Source: an uncultured Clostridia bacterium (lineage in GTDB: Bacteria > Bacillota > Clostridia > UMGS1883). From it: a stretch of DNA of 64,000 nucleotides. Position numbers and translations under genes: made by a program. The notes under the pieces were generated by a model. The model had not been told where the DNA came from. It saw only the letters and a program-made list of their open reading frames with translations, and searched no databases. Numbering within the stretch: the first letter of the stretch is position 1; each line of letters opens with the position of its first letter. The stretch spans positions 318,339 through 382,338 of the forward strand of contig CANQRB010000002.1 in NCBI GenBank assembly GCA_947626145.1, written 5' to 3'. Shown here one piece after another: positions 1,430-38,081 of this stretch.

Positions 1430-1457
1430 ACTTCCGATAAGAAATACTATCGGAAGT
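1430..1457 (+). repeat. Inverted recombination-type site, left, cassette 1
   Basis: The site consists of arm ACTTCCGATA, 8-bp spacer AGAAATAC and arm TATCGGAAGT. It is itself palindromic apart from the asymmetric spacer. The same site occurs inverted at 1738-1765. The 10-8-10 architecture fits a tyrosine-recombinase crossover site, but the enzyme class is inferred. Confidence 0.85.
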
Positions 1458-1591
1458 AAAACCGAGCGGCCTTTTATTGCCTTTTGGCTGGCTTTGCAGT
1501 CGACCTCTGCGCCGTCAACCGGGCAAATCCGGCTTAACACGGCCTTTTTCCGAGACTTTCCCGTGATCGGCACATGAAATTTTATAATCTA

Positions 1592-1621
1592 ATTATACTA
1601 CTTTTGCCATAAAAAAGTCAA
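1592..1621 (-). promoter_or_regulatory. Sigma-A promoter inside invertible element 1
   Basis: On the minus strand, TTGACT and TATAAT are separated by 18 bp. Transcription would start near 1585 and run left, away from the secreted-protein gene. No comparable promoter is seen facing right between the element and the gene. Confidence 0.8.
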
Positions 1622-1737
1622 TATCTTTCCCTTATCCATAATGTACAAAATTGTTGTGAGCAATTGTGCAATTTCAACAAATAATTTCCAATTTTCATTT
1701 TTGTGTTGTTAATGTTGCTGTAAAACGGCATAAATTT

Positions 1738-1765
1738 ACTTCCGATAGTATTTCTTATAGGAAGT
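1738..1765 (-). repeat. Inverted recombination-type site, right, cassette 1
   Basis: This is the inverted partner of the site at 1430. Read on the minus strand it is ACTTCCTATA, AGAAATAC, TATCGGAAGT. The outer arm has T where the left site has G, while the spacer and inner arm are identical. Similarity extends a little beyond the 28 bp on both sides. Confidence 0.85.
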
Positions 1766-1818
1766 GCGCATGAAATCGAGAATTTATTTTTTAGTAAAAT
1801 TTTAAGGAGGTAACAAAA

Positions 1819-4800
1819 ATGAGAATCAAAAAAGTTCTGTCATTGGCCGTGGTTCTGGCCATGGTATTGACAGTAGTGCCCATGTTTGGGCTGACCGCCA
1901 GTGCGGCGGAGAAAGTTACGGCTGATCAAATCATAGATGAGACATACCTTGTTTATGATGCCGCAGACAAAAAAACATACTCTGCTGAAACATATGCTGA
2001 GTCTGCGGGTATTATTGCCATGGAATTCGACTTGGGAGCAATGAAAAACAGTAACTATAAGGATTTTGGTATTACTGACGCTATGGGGCGTGTCATTGCC
2101 GGAGCAACTGACGCTTGGAAAGCAGGGGACGGCTTTTATGCTACGGACGGTGAACGTTCAGTGCCTCTTGAATATGGTAATACGCAAATCTCCGCTACCG
2201 GTGCAAAAGTTATTAAATATAACGATTTTAACGGGAATGCAAAGGTACGAATAGTTATTGAAAGAGTAGATACCAATAAATATAATGTAACATACTCTAC
2301 TGTTTCCGATGGTACCGCCACTCCATTTGCAAATGTTGAGTATACTGGCACAGTAATCGGTATTTCTATTCCTTCTGCTTGGGATTATACCGGATGGAGC
2401 GACAGCGTCGATAAAGCTTCTGCCGAAACAGCTTTTGCAAACTGCAAAATCTACGCCGCAAATTACTCTGGCACCAGCGTAAAAATTTCTTACAAATTCA
2501 ATGGGACAGAAATATTTAATGAAACAGTAAAAGGTTACTACACCGGCGAAAGCTTTACTCCGTCAATAGCTACGGGCACGTATTATGCCGATGAAAAAAC
2601 CAAAAAGCTTTATAGAATCGGTAAGCCCGATAAAGATAAGATTGAACCTCTCGTTGCGAGCGCAACCGGCGAGGAAAACCTTATAACCGTTGATCTTTCA
2701 GCATACAAGAATATCGTGGGTGAAAATAAGGTTGCAAACCCCAGCTTCGAAGAGGACACTACAGACTGGACGAAAGGTGACGGCGGAGAACTTCCGTCTA
2801 CAGACTTTGAGATAACAACCGTGCCGAGAAACGTTACTGACGGTACAAAAGCCCTTTTTGCTAAGGGAAGCAGCGGTGAAGGCGTAGCATTGGATACGGC
2901 TTGGACAGTTACTGCTGGAAAGGATTATTTCATCGCGGTTGACGTTAAAGCCACAAAGCGTTATAATGGAAACCAGAACGCCTGGTTCTATGCTAATGAA
3001 AGTGGAACAAAAATAGCAGCCGATGCTAGCGGTACAATTGATCTCGATATTGTCGGGAAATGGTACAAAAAACAATACATTGTAACTCTCAGCGATACTC
3101 AAACCAAAATTGGCTTTTACGGGAGTTGGTTTGCTAACGATGCCGCACCCTATTTAGACAATTTCCAGGTTTACGAGCTCAGCGACATCGAAGACACCCT
3201 CGAATCCCTTGATAAGCCTGAGAAGATTCAAGTTATACAGGGCAACAGTCCCGTTCTTCCCAAGACCCTTAGCGGCCGTGGCGAGCAGGGCACCGCTATG
3301 GACAACGTCGCCATAACCTGGGACGAGCCTGAGGGGGGTTATGCTGAGACAACAACTTATACGGTAAAAGGCACCACAGAAACACCGGGCGTAGAAACAT
3401 CCGTAGACGTTGAGGTGTTGCCCTGTACTGACGCTACTAACGTCGGACAGATACTTTCAAAGAAAGCCAATGACTCAACTGCCGTCCATGCTTTTGATAA
3501 CCAAATAAATGGTAATGTTTACTTTGAGTTTGACCTCAGGTTCACATCCTTTGACATGATGACAAATGCCGGCGAATCAGGAAATATGGGCATATTCCTT
3601 GGATACAGCAATGGCGGTAAAAATTCCACTGGATACGGTTCAGAAGGGAACGCTATTGGCTTGCAGGGAGTTAGAAAAGCACAATTTTCATTCAAAAACG
3701 GCGATAACAAAGGCAACCAAAATCCGTCTAACGTCTTTACCGCAGAAACGGAAAAAACTTACAGGGTATTAATTAATGCAAACATCGAAAATAATAATTA
3801 TACCGCCATTGTAAGGGATGAGGACGGTAACGTCATCTGCAACGAAAATACTGCCATTGGTTTCAGACGGGCCGTTGAATGTATCGACGCTGTACTTGTA
3901 TCTACAAACGGTAGGGGAAACGACGACATAGTTGAAGTAAACAACTTCCGTATTTCCTGGACGGACGAGGACAAATACACCAACGTAACCGTTAAATATT
4001 TCTTTGACGATAGGAAGGAATATCAGTGCGGCGACACTGTTGTAAAGACCGTAGAGAAGAATACGAGTGCGCACTTCGACGCCGTTGAAGGTCGCAAGGA
4101 CGGCAAGTTCTATGTGGCGGAGGCTCAGGAGATACCGGTGGAGGATTCTCCCATAGAAAAATCCGTTGTTATGAAGCTGGACGAATCCAGACCCGCCGCG
4201 GATAAGATGTTCATGTATACAATTAATGATGGTGGACAAAACGAACCAACTGATGAAGTAGGCAACGGCTATCGTATAGAGTCTCCTTGGGCCGCAAATC
4301 CCATAATTTTCATGTCCATACCTGCGCCTGAAGTAAGCGACAACCAGAAAATTACGAGTGCAAAACTGAACTTCTATATGCCTCAAGTAGATAATACAAA
4401 TCTGAATTATGGCTATAAGGTATATGTGGTTCCGGCAGAAAAGGCAGATTTTAACCAAAAGAATGTTAATAACGGAGAAATACAACGCAACGGAGACTAT
4501 GGATGGGCAGGAACTGTTGGAGCAGTAGAAGTATTTAGCGATAGTTATACAACAAATGCCTCTCCCGCAAGCAGAAGCGTAACCTTAGATCTTAGCAAGG
4601 CAAATATTACTGGAGATATCGTGCTCGCATTGCAAATTACTGCACACAATCTCAATGTTGCCGGTCTGGCCTATGAATCCGGAAACTACGCTCCCTATCT
4701 GTCCGATATCGTTATAAAGGACGTTCCCGGTGATGCACAGGTATCCCTTGGCTATGACGAGACCAACAGCAAGTTCCGCTTCCTTGTTACATCTGAAAAG

Positions 4801-5385
4801 GCAGAATCCATTACGGCATCTGTTGAAAACGAAGCTGATCAGACGGTACCGCTTGAAGGCAAGGACGGTCTGGCCCTCGCCACTGAAAAGACTAACGCCA
4901 TTTATACATTCAAAGGCGTAAAAGATGGAGTTGAGGGTAAAGCTTCCGAGCCTGCCAGCATATATAGCCTTGTCGCTAAAGCCCTTAACGATGGCGGCTT
5001 TAGTGCTGAGAATACTATCAAGAATATTGCTGTTGTAAATAAAGTTGTTTCTGATGGCGGACTGAGCACCGATGCAAGTGGCAGTCTTAACGAGCAAGCC
5101 GCTATGATATTTACTATGGAAAAGAATGTTCTTTCTATCAAAGACAACCTTTATAATGCCGGTGTAAAGCTTACAGCACTGCAATATAGTGTAGGCGGGG
5201 CTGAACCTAAAAATGCTGAAATAGGAAGTGACGGTAAGACGGCAACGCTTACAGACGTTAATATCGCTGCACTGGACAGCGTTATCACCTTTGAGGCCGT
5301 AGAGTTTGAGTTTGTAGAAACTGAGATTGCCGAGTCCGTTGACGAAAGTGCGGACAGCGAAATCGACTTCATTGAAGAATTATAA
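1819..5385 (+). CDS. Large secreted modular surface protein, cassette 1
   Basis: This 1188-residue protein has a classic signal peptide (MRIKKVLSL, a hydrophobic core, cleavage near TASA-AE at residue 29). A module with NPSFEEDTTDW near residue 306 resembles CBM4/9-type carbohydrate-binding folds. An Ig-like segment follows (about 490-560), then a jelly-roll-like region (about 575-720) and a segment resembling DNRLRE/CBM96 (about 795-975). The last 210 residues form a domain shared with the paralogue at 23617, ending in a very acidic tail (ESVDESADSEIDFIEEL). No catalytic domain, LPXTG, SLH or dockerin is visible, so anchoring is unknown. AGGAGG lies 9 bp before the ATG. The gene is preceded by the invertible promoter and followed 14 bp later by a 52-aa peptide gene. 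Domain names are by resemblance only. Confidence 0.8.
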   Translation: MRIKKVLSLAVVLAMVLTVVPMFGLTASAAEKVTADQIIDETYLVYDAADKKTYSAETYAESAGIIAMEFDLGAMKNSNYKDFGITDAMGRVIAGATDAWKAGDGFYATDGERSVPLEYGNTQISATGAKVIKYNDFNGNAKVRIVIERVDTNKYNVTYSTVSDGTATPFANVEYTGTVIGISIPSAWDYTGWSDSVDKASAETAFANCKIYAANYSGTSVKISYKFNGTEIFNETVKGYYTGESFTPSIATGTYYADEKTKKLYRIGKPDKDKIEPLVASATGEENLITVDLSAYKNIVGENKVANPSFEEDTTDWTKGDGGELPSTDFEITTVPRNVTDGTKALFAKGSSGEGVALDTAWTVTAGKDYFIAVDVKATKRYNGNQNAWFYANESGTKIAADASGTIDLDIVGKWYKKQYIVTLSDTQTKIGFYGSWFANDAAPYLDNFQVYELSDIEDTLESLDKPEKIQVIQGNSPVLPKTLSGRGEQGTAMDNVAITWDEPEGGYAETTTYTVKGTTETPGVETSVDVEVLPCTDATNVGQILSKKANDSTAVHAFDNQINGNVYFEFDLRFTSFDMMTNAGESGNMGIFLGYSNGGKNSTGYGSEGNAIGLQGVRKAQFSFKNGDNKGNQNPSNVFTAETEKTYRVLINANIENNNYTAIVRDEDGNVICNENTAIGFRRAVECIDAVLVSTNGRGNDDIVEVNNFRISWTDEDKYTNVTVKYFFDDRKEYQCGDTVVKTVEKNTSAHFDAVEGRKDGKFYVAEAQEIPVEDSPIEKSVVMKLDESRPAADKMFMYTINDGGQNEPTDEVGNGYRIESPWAANPIIFMSIPAPEVSDNQKITSAKLNFYMPQVDNTNLNYGYKVYVVPAEKADFNQKNVNNGEIQRNGDYGWAGTVGAVEVFSDSYTTNASPASRSVTLDLSKANITGDIVLALQITAHNLNVAGLAYESGNYAPYLSDIVIKDVPGDAQVSLGYDETNSKFRFLVTSEKAESITASVENEADQTVPLEGKDGLALATEKTNAIYTFKGVKDGVEGKASEPASIYSLVAKALNDGGFSAENTIKNIAVVNKVVSDGGLSTDASGSLNEQAAMIFTMEKNVLSIKDNLYNAGVKLTALQYSVGGAEPKNAEIGSDGKTATLTDVNIAALDSVITFEAVEFEFVETEIAESVDESADSEIDFIEEL

Positions 5386-16810: not shown

Positions 16811-21208
<4,398 letters not shown>

Positions 21209-23230: not shown

Positions 23231-23258
23231 AGTTCCGATAAGAAATGCTATCGGAAGT
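23231..23258 (+). repeat. Inverted recombination-type site, left, cassette 2
   Basis: The site consists of arm AGTTCCGATA, 8-bp spacer AGAAATGC and arm TATCGGAAGT. It matches the site at 1430 except for one base in the outer arm and one in the spacer (A to G). Confidence 0.85.
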
Positions 23259-23391: not shown

Positions 23392-23421
23392 ATTATACTA
23401 CTTTTCCCACATAAAAGTCAA
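23392..23421 (-). promoter_or_regulatory. Sigma-A promoter inside invertible element 2
   Basis: On the minus strand, TTGACT and TATAAT are separated by 18 bp, identical in design and relative position to the promoter at 1592-1621. Confidence 0.8.
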
Positions 23422-23537: not shown

Positions 23538-23565
23538 ACTTCCGATAGCATTTCTTATAGGAAGT
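23538..23565 (-). repeat. Inverted recombination-type site, right, cassette 2
   Basis: Read on the minus strand it is ACTTCCTATA, AGAAATGC, TATCGGAAGT. It shares the G-containing spacer with its left partner and the outer-arm T with the right site of cassette 1. Confidence 0.85.
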
Positions 23566-23616: not shown

Positions 23617-26600
23617 ATGAGAATCAAAAAAGTTCTGTCATTGGCCGTGGTCCTCGCCATGGTATTGACAGTAGTGCCCATGTTTGGGATCACCGCAAGC
23701 GCGGAAGAGACGAAACCAGATGTATCATCTCTTGAGCTAGTTTTCAACGGAGCCAGAGAAGGGAGTTTCAGCGACACGCCAATTAATGTCGCTTATACAG
23801 ATTGGTCATCAGAAACTACGGACAGTGACGGTCATGTAAATGTACAAAAATATGAAGGTTTTGGTGAAAAAGGTACGACTATACAGTTTTATGCTGGAGC
23901 ATGGGATGGCAACGGTGGTGCTATAAATAAAGAATGTACTGTTACAGCTAAGACTACTCTAGCTATAGATGCTGAAATGATTGTATTAGAATGGTACAAT
24001 GAATTTAACGAAGAGGATGGCAACTACAGGACATTTACATTCATTGATAGTGTCGGCGCTGATATAGATTCTTACGAAATTGACACTAATAGCGGTTTAC
24101 ATTGGAAAGGTTTAAAGCGTGTTTTTGGATATCCGGTAAATAAAGCAAAATACACCTTTGTTGCAGTTAACAACACGGAGGCTAATACTCACAGCACATT
24201 TTATTACGTAAATGACAAACTCAGTGCGAAAAATGAAGGGCTATCTGGCACATTCAATGGCTTTGGGGGCATTAAGTGTTTAATCGGTAAGTGGAATAAA
24301 AAAGGCAGAAATTATGGCTTTGCTGATTTAAAGATTTATTCCGGAAGTATTAAAACTGTTGGTGTTACCGTGAAAATTGCTGAACAGGGTAAGGAGTCTA
24401 ATCCTATACATTCGTTTACAGAAAATGTTCTTATAGGTAGCATGTATACACCAAATATTGACAACTACTATATAGATTCTGAAAACAGTATGGTTTACAA
24501 ACTTCAGTCTGTAGAACCTGTAGAAATAACAGCGGAACCTGAAGATATAGTTGTTACTGCGACACCTTATCGTAAAATATCTAGTGAAAAACAAAATCTT
24601 ATAACTAATGGAAGTTTTGAAAACGAAGCCGGAAATTTTGATACTACGGGCTGGCTGTCTCCACAATCAAATGCTGAAATTCCAAACCCGCAAAATAATA
24701 ATACGGGACACTTTATGGCTGTAAAAAAGGATGATGGATATTATTTTGAATCATCTCATAAAGATTGGAGTACCGGCGATGATGGTATGCCTACGAAAGC
24801 CGATGGTAATCCAACGGATGGCAGCTGGTACCTTCTCGGTAAATATGGTGACCCATATGATGGACTTTGCTCTTTAAAGCGGACGTTTGATTTAACCCCA
24901 GGAGCAAGTTATGTTTTCAGCTTTGATACAAGAATGCTTAAAGGGAGTGGCTCTGGAGACAATATTCATTTTGGACTTGTTGCTGAGGGTAAGGATATAT
25001 CCGATGAGAATGCTGCACTTGGAGAAAAGACGACTGGAAAGCTTGACGACAATTGGAAGACAGTATCCTTTGTGTTTGTGGCAGATGAGAATCTTAATGC
25101 ATTGCAGTTTAGAGCTTGGTGCATTGGAAGTGAAGGGTCGCTTGCTGGAGAGGGAAGACTTTGTTTTGATAACTTCAAACTTTACAAGTTAGAACCTCTC
25201 GATACACAAACGGAGGTAAAGGTGACCTACAAGTGCGGCGAAAAAACTTTGTTAGAAAAATACGTCACATATGAAAAGGGTGAAGATGGGGTTACTTTCC
25301 CCGAAAGGTATCTATATAACGACGGCGAAATTTACTATCTCCCCGAGGTTCAACTCACCGAAAGTAAAGAAATCACAGATGCTGATGGAGTAAGAAAGGT
25401 TGACCATTATACTTCCAAAACGCCCAATGTTCCTTTCTCTGTTGACGGTGAAAAATTCTATAAGCTAACAGAAGGCGCTGAGAGCGTTGTTGTAAACGGT
25501 AATTTTACTACCGGTGATGCACTTGGCTGGACAGCACGCAGTGGTAATAAAAATAATGGTACTGTACGCAAAGAAGCCGTTAAAGGTGTTGAAACGAATG
25601 TCCTCAAAGCAGGAAATCAAAACGATAACACTATAGGCCAAATTTGGGCCCTTGCACCAGCTACGACATACTTTATAAGCTTTGATGTGGCAGGAGTAGC
25701 TAAAGATGGCCAAGGTAACTTATATGCTTCTTTAGTACCCAGTGCTTCGGCAGAAGCAGCAAGAACTGCTGCCACAAACAATATATCTTCTGATAACGGC
25801 GATCTCCTCAAAGATAAATGGCAGGTATCTACAAATTGGATAAATTACAGCATGATTTATACCTCCGAAGCCGGAACACCATATTTGTCACTTTGCTTTG
25901 CTTATATGGGCAATGCCAGACTGGCAAATGTAGAGATCATACCGGTTGAAGAAGTTGGAAGCTCTACAGATATAACAGTATCTTTTAAGAATGAGGGCAC
26001 TGAAGTATATTCGTCTACCCAAAAAGGATTGGATGGAGCAGAGATCAAAGTTCCCTATCAAATAGTAAAGGGTTCATCAGACGAAAAGAATTATGTACTT
26101 CCGCATGATGCTACGAAAGTAGCTGATAATGGTAAAGTTGAGGTTGATGTTGTACCCGTGAAAGCGTTTACATGGAATAAAGTGAATAATGTTATCCATG
26201 TTCAGAATCCAGGCGATGATCTTGATTACGCCACACAGGCAGTGAATGCCAGCCACGACCTTAACCGTGAGGGCTACGCCGTTATTGACAATGTTCCTGA
26301 AAACGCCAATGTGCTTGTTCTTGACGCATGGTTCAATAATGTTAACGGTGATACCGTACAGTATCCAAAACTTACATTTAACGCGGTTTCCGGCACTGGT
26401 CTTGAAACTATCAATCTTACCGAAGGGGAAGCGACAACAACTGCTTTGAACAAAATGTTTGAGACACCTGTTCAAACAGTAACTGAATTTGACACCACAG
26501 GAGCCGTTCCTGTTCCCGCCGATCATCATCAGGGCGTTACAGTAAAAGTATATGTTCCTATGGATCTTGCCAGCCTCAGTGGAACCGGAGCGTCCATAAA

Positions 26601-27327
26601 AATGACTACAGTTTCTACTCAGGGCGGTATGATTACCGTTTACGGTATGTCTGCCGAACACGTTGATGTACCCGGGAAAGCCGCAGTTGAATTGGGTTAT
26701 GACGAGAAAAGTAATCAGTTCCGCTTCCTTGTTACGTCTGAAAATGCGGACTCTATTAAGGCGTCCGTTGAAGGTAAAGGTGATCAGACAGTACCGCTTG
26801 GAGATACTGACGGTCTTGCTCTCGCCGCTGAACAGACTAATGCCATTTATACATTCAAAGGCTTAAACAATAACGTTGAGGGTGAAGTTTCCGAGCCTGC
26901 CAGCATATATAGCCTTTTGGCTAATGCTCTTACAAATGGATTTGACGCTAACAACAAGATCAAGAATATTGATGCGGTAAACAAAGTCGTTTCCGCCGGA
27001 GGTCTTGCGTTTAAGACCGGCAACACGGAACTCAACACAGAGGCCGCAATGATATTTGAGTTTAAAGATAATACGGTCTCTGTTAAAGATGCTCTTTACA
27101 ACGCCGGTATAATACTCAGTAAAATTACTTATGTTGCAGGTGAAAAAACCGGTGAAATTGAATCTGCTGACGGCAAGAGCGTTGATCTTACAGAGGTACT
27201 CACTACTCAAGCAATTGACAGCGTTATCACCTTTGAGGCCGTAGAGTTTGAGTTTGTAGAAACTGAGATTGCCGAGTCCGTTGACGAAAGCGCGGACAGC
27301 GAAATCGACTTCATCGAAGAATTATAA
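23617..27327 (+). CDS. Large secreted modular surface protein, cassette 2
   Basis: This 1236-residue protein is a paralogue of the one at 1819. The signal peptide is nearly identical (MRIKKVLSLAVVLAMVLTVV) with cleavage near TASA. The N-terminal region is unrelated in detail to the paralogue. Two CBM4/9-like modules are suggested by NGSFENEAGNFDTTGW (near 327) and NGNFTTGDALGWTA (near 624). The last 215 residues align with the paralogue (VELGYDEKSNQFRFLVTSE) and the acidic tail is identical in protein. No enzyme signature or wall anchor is seen. AAGGAGG precedes the ATG at 23617, which rules out the in-frame start inside the invertible element. The gene is AT-richer than its neighbours. Confidence 0.8.
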   Translation: MRIKKVLSLAVVLAMVLTVVPMFGITASAEETKPDVSSLELVFNGAREGSFSDTPINVAYTDWSSETTDSDGHVNVQKYEGFGEKGTTIQFYAGAWDGNGGAINKECTVTAKTTLAIDAEMIVLEWYNEFNEEDGNYRTFTFIDSVGADIDSYEIDTNSGLHWKGLKRVFGYPVNKAKYTFVAVNNTEANTHSTFYYVNDKLSAKNEGLSGTFNGFGGIKCLIGKWNKKGRNYGFADLKIYSGSIKTVGVTVKIAEQGKESNPIHSFTENVLIGSMYTPNIDNYYIDSENSMVYKLQSVEPVEITAEPEDIVVTATPYRKISSEKQNLITNGSFENEAGNFDTTGWLSPQSNAEIPNPQNNNTGHFMAVKKDDGYYFESSHKDWSTGDDGMPTKADGNPTDGSWYLLGKYGDPYDGLCSLKRTFDLTPGASYVFSFDTRMLKGSGSGDNIHFGLVAEGKDISDENAALGEKTTGKLDDNWKTVSFVFVADENLNALQFRAWCIGSEGSLAGEGRLCFDNFKLYKLEPLDTQTEVKVTYKCGEKTLLEKYVTYEKGEDGVTFPERYLYNDGEIYYLPEVQLTESKEITDADGVRKVDHYTSKTPNVPFSVDGEKFYKLTEGAESVVVNGNFTTGDALGWTARSGNKNNGTVRKEAVKGVETNVLKAGNQNDNTIGQIWALAPATTYFISFDVAGVAKDGQGNLYASLVPSASAEAARTAATNNISSDNGDLLKDKWQVSTNWINYSMIYTSEAGTPYLSLCFAYMGNARLANVEIIPVEEVGSSTDITVSFKNEGTEVYSSTQKGLDGAEIKVPYQIVKGSSDEKNYVLPHDATKVADNGKVEVDVVPVKAFTWNKVNNVIHVQNPGDDLDYATQAVNASHDLNREGYAVIDNVPENANVLVLDAWFNNVNGDTVQYPKLTFNAVSGTGLETINLTEGEATTTALNKMFETPVQTVTEFDTTGAVPVPADHHQGVTVKVYVPMDLASLSGTGASIKMTTVSTQGGMITVYGMSAEHVDVPGKAAVELGYDEKSNQFRFLVTSENADSIKASVEGKGDQTVPLGDTDGLALAAEQTNAIYTFKGLNNNVEGEVSEPASIYSLLANALTNGFDANNKIKNIDAVNKVVSAGGLAFKTGNTELNTEAAMIFEFKDNTVSVKDALYNAGIILSKITYVAGEKTGEIESADGKSVDLTEVLTTQAIDSVITFEAVEFEFVETEIAESVDESADSEIDFIEEL

Positions 27328-34454: not shown

Positions 34455-37400
34455 ATGAAGAAATTTTTAGCGGCAGTCATAACCCTCTGTATGGCTTTGA
34501 CGGTGATGCCGGCGATCAGCCTTGCGGCGGAGACGGTCAGCATAGGCACGGCCGAAGAGCTCATGCAATATTTTGAACAGCTGCGCGGCGGCGTTCAGAA
34601 TAACGCTGTGCTTACGGCTGACATCGACCTGTCGGGCTATCTGTCCGTTGACAACCCCATGCGGCCCATACCTGTCTTTGAAGCAGTGTTTGACGGCGCT
34701 CTCCACAGCGTTAAGGGACTTCACATAGGCTCGGCCGAAAGCGCCGCTCTCTTTGTTGAGCTTGGCGGAACGGTCATGAACGTGAGCCTTGAGGGCACCG
34801 TGGCGGCGGAAGAGGCCGCCGGAATAGCCGTCAGCAGCAGGGGCACGATCTCTCACGTCAAAACGGTAATGAACGTTTTCGGCCGTACAAGGGCCGCCGG
34901 AATGGTGCTGACAAATACCGGTGTAATTGTCGGCAGCGACAGCCGCGGCGACGTGAAGATAACCGAAAACAACAGCCTTGCGGCGGGCATCGCCTGCGTG
35001 AACAGCGGTATAATTTCCGGCTGCGCCAATTACAGCACCGTGGCCGGCAGAACCCTTGACGGCGGCGCCAAATTTGCCGGCGGCATATGCGCCTTTTCCA
35101 CCGGAACGGTTACCGGCTGCGCCAACGCCGGAGAAGTTTCCGGCGGAGATATGGAGGACACCGGTAATGAGAATTACACCGCCAACATCAGCTCCGCCAC
35201 CGGAGTGGGCGGCGCCGGCGGTATCGTCGGCGTGGCCGAGGGTGCGGGCAAAATTGAAAATTGCGTGAACAGCGGCCTCGTCAGCGGCGACGGTATAATC
35301 AACGTTGGCGGCATCGCCGGATTCAGCGCCCAGACCGTGACGGATGTGACCAATTACGGCGAGGTGGCCGCATATACTCATAACGACGAGGCGGCGGATA
35401 AGAACGAGGCGGCGTCCACCGGCGGTATAGCCGGTATGGCGAGGGCCGCCGTTGAAAACGCCCGTAACTTTGGCCGTATTTTCGGCGACACCCGCACGGG
35501 CGGCATCGTCGGCACTGGCAGCGACACTAAAAACAGCGTGAATTACGGCCGTATCGAGGGCACCGACACTCAGGGCGGAATTGCCGGCGAGGTGAACGGC
35601 CTGGCCTACGGCTGCACCAATTATGGAGAGATACACGGCAGCGAGGACCGTACCGGCGGCGTCGCCGGTAAGCTCGGCTCCGGCAGCATAGAGCTTTGCG
35701 CCAACATGGGCGTGGTTTCCGGCGCGGAAAACAGGGAGCTTACCTCGAACTACACCGGCGGCATTGTGGGCCGCATGGACGAGGGAGCCGCCGGACTGAA
35801 GAATGTGTACGGCACCGTTGAAATTTCGGCCCCCTACGGCTCCGCCGGAGGAGCGGGCTGCAAGCTCAACACCGACCTCAGCGGCTTTATCATCAATCTC
35901 GGGCCGCACAATATTGACGGCTCTCAGGGCAACCGCCACTTTGAAGACGCCAACTTCTATTGGCGTGACAACAAGTGGGGCGAGGACAAATGGCCCGAAA
36001 ATATTGTCGATCTGCTTAATGCCGGAGACGATGTTTGGGTAATGGGCCCTGACGGCTATCCTGTTTTCGCAAAGGATACGCTTTCCGACGGCACCGTTCA
36101 TGTGCGGAGCGCCGAAGAGCTCAGGAACGCTCTGGCCAACGAGGCGGCGATGAACGTCGTTGTTGACGGTGTAATTGATGTTGACGGGGACGTCAGCGTT
36201 GTCGGCGGCAAAACTCTGTCCGGCAGCCAGCTCAGGCTGAACGGCGGCAGCCTTGTCATGGCGGCCTGGGGCGAGTTTAATCTCGGCAATATCAGCATCC
36301 GCACCTCCGGCGCTCCGGCTGTGCGTGTGAACGGAACCTTAAACATAAAGGGAATAGTCGATACAAACGCTTCGATTATTGGCGAAACCGGCGTGATATA
36401 TGATGTGGACGGTATAATCCTCAACGGCGGAGAGAATGCCGCCGGGCCGGACATAACCATCAGCGACTCCACCGGACTTTACTATGTGCGCCCCTATCGC
36501 AGGGACGGCATGAGCTTCTATAATTACGTTCCCGAGGATGCGGCGGTGGTTGCCGGAATTGCGGCCCTTGCCGCCGACAATCCCTCACTGGCCTTTGATG
36601 TGTACGCCGTTGTAAGGGGCGGCGCGGCACAGCTGTTCCTTCCCGGCACGGCAAATCTCGCTTCGGTCACCTTTACCGGCGTCAACGGTGACGGGCTGCC
36701 CGTTCAGGACAAAAAGTGGACCGCCGATCTTTCCGGCGGAAAGACCTACGGCCCTGTCCGTATCGGCGGCTTTGACTATACGGTGTCCGCCTTACAGTCG
36801 TCGCTGCCCGCTCTTTCCTTTAACATTGATGAGAGCTTTGGCACCATCGCCGCCATGAACACCTCGACGGATCACTCCGTCAAGTGCTACGGCAGCGCCG
36901 ATATCTATGTTCCCGAGGCCTTGAAGGCTCAGAAGGGCTGGACTGACATCAGCAGCCTTGACTATCAGGACAAGGATCCCGACAAATCTCCCGGAACCAT
37001 GGAGATAAAGGGCAGGGGCAACAGCACCTGGGTGGCCGACCTCACCACCAAAAAGCCCTATCAGTTCAAGTTCGAGAAAAAAGTGGACGTTCTCGGCATG
37101 GGCGAGAGCAAGACATGGGTCATTCTGAAAAACGACGAGAGATACATAATCAACAAGCTGGCCTTTGACCTCGGTCTGGAAATGGGCCTGGAAAACTCCT
37201 CTCACAGCGAGTTTGTGGACGTGTTCATGAACGGCGAATACCTCGGCAATTATCTGCTCTGCGAAAAGGTAGAGGTGGGCAAGAGCCGTGTCAATGTTTC
37301 CGATTTGGACGACGAGTACGAGGCCAACGGCAACAGCGTCGAGGGTCTTGACCTCACCGGCGGCTACCTGCTGGAGATAGACAACTGGGACGGCGACGCC

Positions 37401-38081
37401 GTACAGATTCAGTATGATCCGGACAATGACGGAGTGAACGACACCGTTGTTTCCATCAAGTCGCCGGAGGATCTGGCCGTGACCGCCTCCGCCGATGCGG
37501 ATAACCCATACAGCTATATTTACAACTATGTCACCGATTTCCTTGACGCGGTCTATGGCGACGGCATCATGTCCGACGGCAGGAGCTACCTTGACCACAT
37601 CGACAAGGACAGCTTTGTGAAGTATTTCCTGCATCAGGAATTCCTGCGCAATAAGGACTGCGGCATCGGCAGCACCTATCTTTACAAGGATAAGGACGGC
37701 ATCGATCCGCTGCTTTACGCCGGCCCGCTCTGGGACAACGACCGTGCGATTTCCAGCTGGACCTATGACGAGTGGACAATGAGGACCGTCACCCGTCCGC
37801 CGAACGGTTCGGTAGCCCTGTACAATCAGCTTAGCCGTCGGCCCGACTTTGCCGCCCTTGTAGTTGACTACTATCGGAACTCCGATGTCAGGACGGTGTT
37901 CGCCAACGCCTACAGGCACATTGAGGACTATAACGCCTATGCGGGCTCGTCCTTCGCCATGGACGCCCTTCGCTGGGACATCACCGTCAACAACGAGTGG
38001 ATGATAGATATACTCAGGAAGCGGGCGGAGTGGTTCGACGCCAATTATCAGGAGCTGCTCACTCTGGCGCAGTCAGAATAA
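34455..38081 (+). CDS. Secreted beta-helix/GLUG repeat protein with CotH kinase domain
   Basis: This 1208-residue protein has a signal peptide (MKKFLAAVITLCMALTVMPA). Residues about 100-470 form repeats of about 20-30 residues with GGIAG or GGIVG and CANxGxVSG patterns, as in GLUG or pectate-lyase-like helices. The C-terminal third is a CotH domain: KGRGNSTW near 852, then KNDERYIINKLAFDLG, FMNGEYLGNYLLCEKV, and a late AGPLWDNDRAISSW. CotH proteins are atypical kinases; spore-coat CotH phosphorylates coat proteins, and extracellular forms are common in cellulolytic Clostridia. GGGGGTG precedes the ATG. It is monocistronic. Confidence 0.87.
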   Translation: MKKFLAAVITLCMALTVMPAISLAAETVSIGTAEELMQYFEQLRGGVQNNAVLTADIDLSGYLSVDNPMRPIPVFEAVFDGALHSVKGLHIGSAESAALFVELGGTVMNVSLEGTVAAEEAAGIAVSSRGTISHVKTVMNVFGRTRAAGMVLTNTGVIVGSDSRGDVKITENNSLAAGIACVNSGIISGCANYSTVAGRTLDGGAKFAGGICAFSTGTVTGCANAGEVSGGDMEDTGNENYTANISSATGVGGAGGIVGVAEGAGKIENCVNSGLVSGDGIINVGGIAGFSAQTVTDVTNYGEVAAYTHNDEAADKNEAASTGGIAGMARAAVENARNFGRIFGDTRTGGIVGTGSDTKNSVNYGRIEGTDTQGGIAGEVNGLAYGCTNYGEIHGSEDRTGGVAGKLGSGSIELCANMGVVSGAENRELTSNYTGGIVGRMDEGAAGLKNVYGTVEISAPYGSAGGAGCKLNTDLSGFIINLGPHNIDGSQGNRHFEDANFYWRDNKWGEDKWPENIVDLLNAGDDVWVMGPDGYPVFAKDTLSDGTVHVRSAEELRNALANEAAMNVVVDGVIDVDGDVSVVGGKTLSGSQLRLNGGSLVMAAWGEFNLGNISIRTSGAPAVRVNGTLNIKGIVDTNASIIGETGVIYDVDGIILNGGENAAGPDITISDSTGLYYVRPYRRDGMSFYNYVPEDAAVVAGIAALAADNPSLAFDVYAVVRGGAAQLFLPGTANLASVTFTGVNGDGLPVQDKKWTADLSGGKTYGPVRIGGFDYTVSALQSSLPALSFNIDESFGTIAAMNTSTDHSVKCYGSADIYVPEALKAQKGWTDISSLDYQDKDPDKSPGTMEIKGRGNSTWVADLTTKKPYQFKFEKKVDVLGMGESKTWVILKNDERYIINKLAFDLGLEMGLENSSHSEFVDVFMNGEYLGNYLLCEKVEVGKSRVNVSDLDDEYEANGNSVEGLDLTGGYLLEIDNWDGDAVQIQYDPDNDGVNDTVVSIKSPEDLAVTASADADNPYSYIYNYVTDFLDAVYGDGIMSDGRSYLDHIDKDSFVKYFLHQEFLRNKDCGIGSTYLYKDKDGIDPLLYAGPLWDNDRAISSWTYDEWTMRTVTRPPNGSVALYNQLSRRPDFAALVVDYYRNSDVRTVFANAYRHIEDYNAYAGSSFAMDALRWDITVNNEWMIDILRKRAEWFDANYQELLTLAQSE

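Follow-up and report, generated by a model that had tools for sequence, protein, structure and literature searches.

The window analyzed here, a stretch of 64,000 nucleotides, is part of contig C2 of an uncultured Clostridia genome (G000; 2.44 Mb in 23 contigs). Near its start, two inverted 28-bp sites at positions 1430–1457 (minus strand) and 1738–1765 (plus strand) enclose 280 bp, as the original prediction had described, and form part of longer inverted repeats of 34 nt (1427–1460 and 1735–1768; 94% complementary). The distal site consists of an 11-nt arm, a 6-nt core (GAAATA, 1441–1446) and a second 11-nt arm; the gene-proximal site is its inverted copy with an identical core (1749–1754). 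The strong promoter that had been predicted between the sites is present as a sigma-70-type element (TTGACT-18-TATAAT, 1592–1621, minus strand) which matches the consensus at 11 of 12 positions and points away from the gene. It is the sole 11/12 match within positions 1080–1900 (read from 1621 to 1592), an interval in which no gene-directed, plus-strand promoter-like site was found in the present orientation. A transcribed leader (1458–1585, minus strand) lies downstream of the promoter, moves with it and would form the 5′ UTR of the gene once the cassette is ON. Upstream of the -35 box, the cassette alignment reveals an A/T-rich conserved region with TTGT/ACAA motifs (1622–1690, minus strand), which may be a regulator site.

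Outside the distal site, the expected bidirectional intrinsic terminator occupies positions 1368–1407 with a 16-bp stem flanked by A/T tracts on both sides; its predicted role is to end the outward OFF transcript and to shield the gene from upstream read-through. On the gene side, a Shine-Dalgarno sequence (AAGGAGG, 1804–1810, plus strand), conserved among the loci described below, precedes the controlled gene (1819–5385, plus strand), whose 1,188-aa product starts with a signal-peptide-like N-terminus and matches the large secreted protein that had been anticipated just downstream. A search of positions 1000–2000 on both strands found no Rfam family at its gathering threshold. A RAGATH-12 match covering the gene-side site and 5′ UTR (1746–1812, plus strand; 29.8 bits vs. 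a gathering threshold of 75) contains many broken pairs and was rejected as probably due to chance.

Four occurrences of the site pattern were found in the window, against none expected from 100 dinucleotide shuffles, and they make up two inverted pairs. The second cassette (L004) comprises a distal site (23231–23258, minus strand), a promoter pointing away from the gene (23392–23421, minus strand), a gene-proximal site (23538–23565, plus strand) and a controlled gene (23617–27327, plus strand) encoding a secreted protein of 1,236 aa with a CBM_4_9 domain and with N- and C-termini as in cassette 1. The window also contains two large secreted-type ORFs encoding a GH2 beta-galactosidase with a LamG domain (16862–21208) and a protein with a CotH domain (34455–38081), which mark a carbohydrate-directed neighborhood.

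Eight homologous cassettes are found in the genome as a whole. Six of these have two sites (L001, which is cassette 1, and L002–L006), and the remaining two (L007 and L008), arranged in tandem at 152–156 kb of contig C1, retain a degenerate gene-side site only and have a promoter that faces the gene. Seven further paired cassettes were identified in two other species of the genus, five in G007 (a bin of uncultured Clostridia whose sample carries the label “Lapin”; rabbit metagenome) and two in G002. Across 15 homologous cassettes the promoter hexamers hardly vary, with TATAAT and TTGACT themselves invariant, and none of the paired cassettes adjoins a recombinase gene. Site-like matches with 3 mismatches in other genera of the family were without an inverted partner and were treated as chance. 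Neither the site nor the leader matched anything in IMG/VR, which gives no sign of a phage origin.

Every site shows the same layout of 11 + 6 + 11 nt, which is typical of tyrosine recombinase sites. The cores vary between pairs (GAAATA, GAAATG, GGAATG, GGAACA, and GTATTA among them), yet within 12 of the 13 pairs the two cores are identical, as strand exchange requires; the sole mismatched pair is L040. This amounts to one observed core mismatch within pairs as opposed to 21.3 expected on random re-pairing (permutation p ~1e-5), a count which has to be read with the reservation that the cassettes are paralogues and not fully independent events. The six pairs of the window's own genome taken alone show no core mismatch vs. 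4.3 expected (p 0.017). The outer arms are less constrained, with 1–6 differing positions. In L002 and L003 the inner sequences are almost identical while the cores differ, each core being matched on both sides. The sites therefore appear to belong to the tyrosine-recombinase type, with two inverted arms around a core that is shared by the partners in 12 of 13 pairs.

In all 13 assembled paired cassettes the promoter is directed away from the gene, corresponding to the OFF state (p ~1e-4 under 50:50 orientation). Since assemblers report the majority sequence, each cassette is likely to be mostly OFF in its source population, a bias to be anticipated where only a few members of the family are active in a given cell at any moment. 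On the outward flank, a terminator-like hairpin is present in 10 of the 13 cassettes (weak in L005 and L006, none found in L042 and L044), and several of these hairpins are unrelated in sequence, which fits an insulation of the neighboring genes in the OFF state.

The effect of inversion can be examined in silico by comparison with the one-site loci L007 and L008. After flipping, 11 of the 13 cassettes become collinear with L007/L008 over ~280 bp (70–79% identity, 107–220 bits), a stretch which includes promoter, leader, site, Shine-Dalgarno sequence and start codon; the two others, the G002 cassettes L041 and L043, are too diverged to tell. In unflipped cassettes, only the gene-proximal ~50–110 bp align (60–100 bits). 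Based on this collinearity and on the site architecture, the segment expected to invert in cassette 1 extends from core to core (1441–1754), and the cassette promoter would reach the gene in one orientation only. Promoter and leader also read toward the gene side at one-site loci in G007:C25 and G006:C50. The ON arrangement thus exists in nature in the form of locked versions, and L007 and L008 are probably locked-ON derivatives. A search for the ON-specific junction pattern returned nothing from 84,980 species genomes, a collection which may leave out the window's own genome. The arrangement originally proposed, with an OFF-oriented promoter enclosed by inverted recombination sites, is confirmed and is further backed by additional cassettes, matched cores, ON-like loci and the co-occurring recombinase described below. 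The sequence logic of such a switch is well supported, and from it we infer the flip itself.

Between promoter and site, ~130 nt of leader are conserved, within which AGAGGTCGACT is invariant. In cassette 1, the structured part (1477–1526, minus strand) forms three nested helices topped by an apical hairpin at 1496–1510 (GCAG-AGGUCGA-CUGC). Across 14 sequences, 92.7% of cells in these helices are paired, compared to 24–46% in slid controls, with some bias remaining in this figure because the structure was derived from the family on which it was tested. Seven pairs have changed on both sides, and the apical stem occurs in compensated versions such as GCAG/CUGC, ACAG/CUGU, and GUAG/CUAC. A covariance model of the leader matched exclusively alongside these cassettes among 21 genomes of the family. 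By eye, a c-di-GMP riboswitch had been suspected; no Rfam family reaches threshold for the leader, and a known riboswitch was rejected. As part of the 5′ UTR, the leader may have a cis-regulatory role. A description of a leader RNA that is co-inverted with its promoter was not found in the open-access literature searched.

A candidate for the responsible enzyme is a 290-aa tyrosine recombinase encoded away from the cassettes (G000:C6:74476–75345), beside genes which we take to be dipicolinate-synthase-like and HflX-like. The protein matches PF00589 (Phage_integrase) above the cut-off with 89 bits, and the active-site residues R, K, HxxR, H, and Y, located by eye in the alignment, appear intact. 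Its closest solved relatives are XerC-like, XerA and XerD proteins; it falls below the NCBIfam equivalog cut-offs for XerA (115 bits vs. 220) and XerC (96 vs. 335), and XerD failed as well. Orthologues occur in G007, G006, and G002 only, with 83, 67, and 66% identity, respectively, and the identity in the remaining genomes of the 21 in the family is at most ~31%. An orthologue of at least 65% identity is accordingly present in all four genomes with genuine sites and in none of the 17 without them, an association which rests on four related genomes and ignores kinship. The genome also encodes serine recombinases and two other Xer-like tyrosine recombinases, the latter being found in genomes of the genus whether or not these carry sites.

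The proteins controlled by the six paired and two one-site loci share a common signal peptide and a C-terminus ending in DFI(P/E)EL (DFIEEL in cassette 1) and differ between these termini. They range from 1,034 to 1,236 aa, and their domains include LamG, CBM_4_9, and Big_4-like domains; the Big_4-like domain of the cassette 1 protein is sub-threshold. At least five more genes of the genome (L219, L221, L222, L223, and L224) encode a similar signal peptide and lack a recognizable site or leader.

Several contigs end at the sites, and some loci suggest versions of the arrangement that act over longer distances. In G002 (C32, C16, and C7; L206, L207, and L208), three gene-side contig ends (the start of C7 and both ends of C32) lie within one base of the promoter-side edge of a site. 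The first 77 bases at these ends differ from one another, and the terminal overlap between C32 and C16 is exactly 77 bp long, an assembler k-mer. Read most simply, this pattern suggests that in the sample more than one sequence lay upstream of each gene start, a hint of active recombination that falls short of proof. C32 itself, 16 kb long, has a site at each end, and each end also carries a family gene, the two genes being convergent. The same layout is found in intact form in G007:C25 (11284–22790; L213/L214), where inverted 29-bp sites are located 11.45 kb apart at two convergent secreted-protein genes, with promoter and leader on the left side only and pdxS/pdxT-like genes between the sites; judging from this layout, an inversion would place the other of the two genes behind the promoter. 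Contig C4 of the window's own genome has a 29-bp site a single base away from its end (L225), and the first ~77 bases of contig C3 (L220) repeat the 5′ end of the C4 gene. As a 5′ UTR and signal-peptide stretch is common to C3, a simple repeat could explain the break, and the C4 end was rejected as proof of two orientations. The ends of G006:C50 and C180, which have paralogous flanks with one difference, were likewise not counted as proof. A site near pyrG-like genes is seen both in G006:C180 (L212) and at L225, and the arrangement of site and gene relative to pyrG differs between them, as if a rearrangement had separated the two species.

Taken together, the cassette is very probably a promoter inverton run by a dedicated XerA/XerC-like tyrosine recombinase, with the OFF state prevalent. 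In the proposed mechanism, the 290-aa recombinase would bind each of the two 28-bp sites at its 11-nt arms, and strand exchange across the identical 6-nt cores would invert ~310 bp. In the OFF state, as assembled, the promoter and the structured leader would fire away from the gene into the terminator. Inversion would create the order promoter, structured leader, site, Shine-Dalgarno sequence, and gene, from which the 1,188-aa secreted protein could be made. One enzyme would serve the six paired cassettes of the genome, flipping each of them independently of the rest, and cells would consequently differ in which of the secreted, partly carbohydrate-binding family proteins they make. We infer the action of this recombinase on these sites, inversion in vivo, and an expression that follows orientation. 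A more tentative extension, which we regard as possible but doubtful, is that the leader with its invariant AGGUCGA loop represents an undescribed riboswitch-like or protein-binding element; the gene would then require both a flip to ON and a leader signal, the OFF promoter would produce a separate terminated leader RNA, and one recombinase would serve local flipping as well as the swapping of genes over 11–16 kb.

The main rival explanation for the OFF bias is a fixed orientation, in which the sites are relics and the cassettes are locked OFF, their genes being silent archives or driven by an undetected promoter. That all 13 cassettes face one way agrees with this, as do the core mismatch in one of 13 pairs (L040) and the divergence of some outer arms; however, 12 of 13 pairs have kept identical cores despite divergence between pairs, no gene-directed promoter was found in the present orientation, and the promoter hexamers and leader are conserved. 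With the ORFs intact as well, and the recombinase apparently so, these matched cores and conserved elements point to continuing selection for a working switch, and a fixed orientation is considered improbable. Even less credible is the idea that the outward transcript is a functional small RNA of ~220 nt, with the inverted repeats serving merely as a hairpin or insulator. The 231-nt outward transcript does fold stably (-91.4 kcal/mol, z -7.0), is terminated, and contains a covarying leader, but at L007, L008, and G007:C25 promoter and leader are directed into the gene, so that the leader belongs to an mRNA there. From one cassette to another the outward terminators share no sequence relationship, which suits insulation, and a small RNA would need no matched 6-nt cores. 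An outward small RNA could nevertheless coexist with the switch.

Two further alternatives accept recombination at the sites and differ from the dedicated promoter inverton in the enzyme or in the scale of the event. Inversion could be real and carried out by the housekeeping Xer pair, or by another recombinase of the genome, on dif-like sites, which we judge unlikely. Two Xer-like genes are available, and the gene-side arm ACTTCCTATAA may be similar to the XerC arm known from dif sites of Firmicutes. A precedent is the Vpma inversion of Mycoplasma agalactiae, which is driven by Xer1 (PMC2268961). On the other hand, a B. subtilis-type dif has no match in the genus at up to 3 mismatches (the genus may use another dif), and both Xer-like genes occur regardless of the sites, whereas the 290-aa enzyme is encoded only where sites occur; housekeeping Xer action on dif-like sites was rejected on these grounds. 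It is also very improbable that the sites serve mainly larger rearrangements, i.e., gene swapping between loci, instead of local promoter flips. Such a role is suggested by G007:C25, with sites 11.45 kb apart, two convergent genes, and only one side bearing a promoter, and by the 16 kb of G002:C32 bounded by sites at both ends. Cassette 1 and 12 others, however, have a complete local pair with the promoter inside (spaced by ~300 bp in cassette 1), and cores often differ between cassettes, which would block exchange.

A dedicated promoter inverton would extend the use of one recombinase for many invertible promoters to a genus of uncultured Clostridia, together with a candidate invertase, matched sites, and an inventory of the secreted proteins concerned. 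Phase-variable secreted proteins of a carbohydrate-binding or adhesin-like nature shape the encounters of gut bacteria with mucus, food, phages, and immunity, and a co-inverting leader would add a second regulatory layer over phase variation. Paralogous cassettes and natural, probably locked-ON versions further offer a comparison of switched and constitutive genes inside one genome.

Among known systems, a close parallel is Bacteroides fragilis, whose invertase Mpi is a serine recombinase. Mpi is described as a global invertase acting on many invertible promoters (Coyne 2003, as cited in PMC11868660 and PMC2268961). Both systems would combine one recombinase with dispersed invertible promoters of surface products, each switched ON or OFF separately. 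They differ in that Mpi, a serine enzyme, controls capsule operons, whereas a tyrosine-type enzyme, 11-6-11 sites, single secreted-protein genes, and an RNA leader inside the inverton characterize the present cassettes. Most mpl (P35) lipoprotein genes of Mycoplasma penetrans have their own adjacent invertible promoter (Horino 2003, as cited in PMC2268961). According to that account, they likewise constitute a paralogous surface protein family with invertible promoters spread over the chromosome; the likeness is one of architecture, and in contrast to the present case they encode lipoproteins of a wall-less bacterium, with no leader RNA in the description given in PMC2268961.

Within the Clostridia, Clostridioides difficile switches cwpV, flg, pdcB, and cmrRST, several of them via RecV (PMC7446863, PMC9286219, PMC2784873). 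Short inverted repeats, an OFF state in the reference and surface functions are shared with the present cassettes, and the pdcB switch also carries its own promoter; the C. difficile loci are, however, few, have unrelated targets, and in several cases involve regulatory RNAs. To our knowledge, none of them has a conserved leader that is inverted along with the promoter. In gut Clostridia, inverton group 139 has been linked to tyrosine recombinase group 35 (PMC11892184), which likewise associates Clostridia invertons with a tyrosine-type recombinase. This likeness is one of general description, and the recombinase of that group adjoins its inverton, whereas the candidate enzyme here is encoded elsewhere in the genome. 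In the vpma locus of M. agalactiae, finally, inversion by Xer1 links silent genes to one promoter (PMC2268961); this also involves an Xer-like tyrosine recombinase, and the long arrangement at G007:C25 would similarly link genes to one promoter, in contrast to the window cassette, which would move the promoter and not the gene. As far as their sequence organization indicates, the cassettes appear to belong to the known strategy of one recombinase serving many invertible promoters, with the invertible RNA leader as the apparently unusual part.
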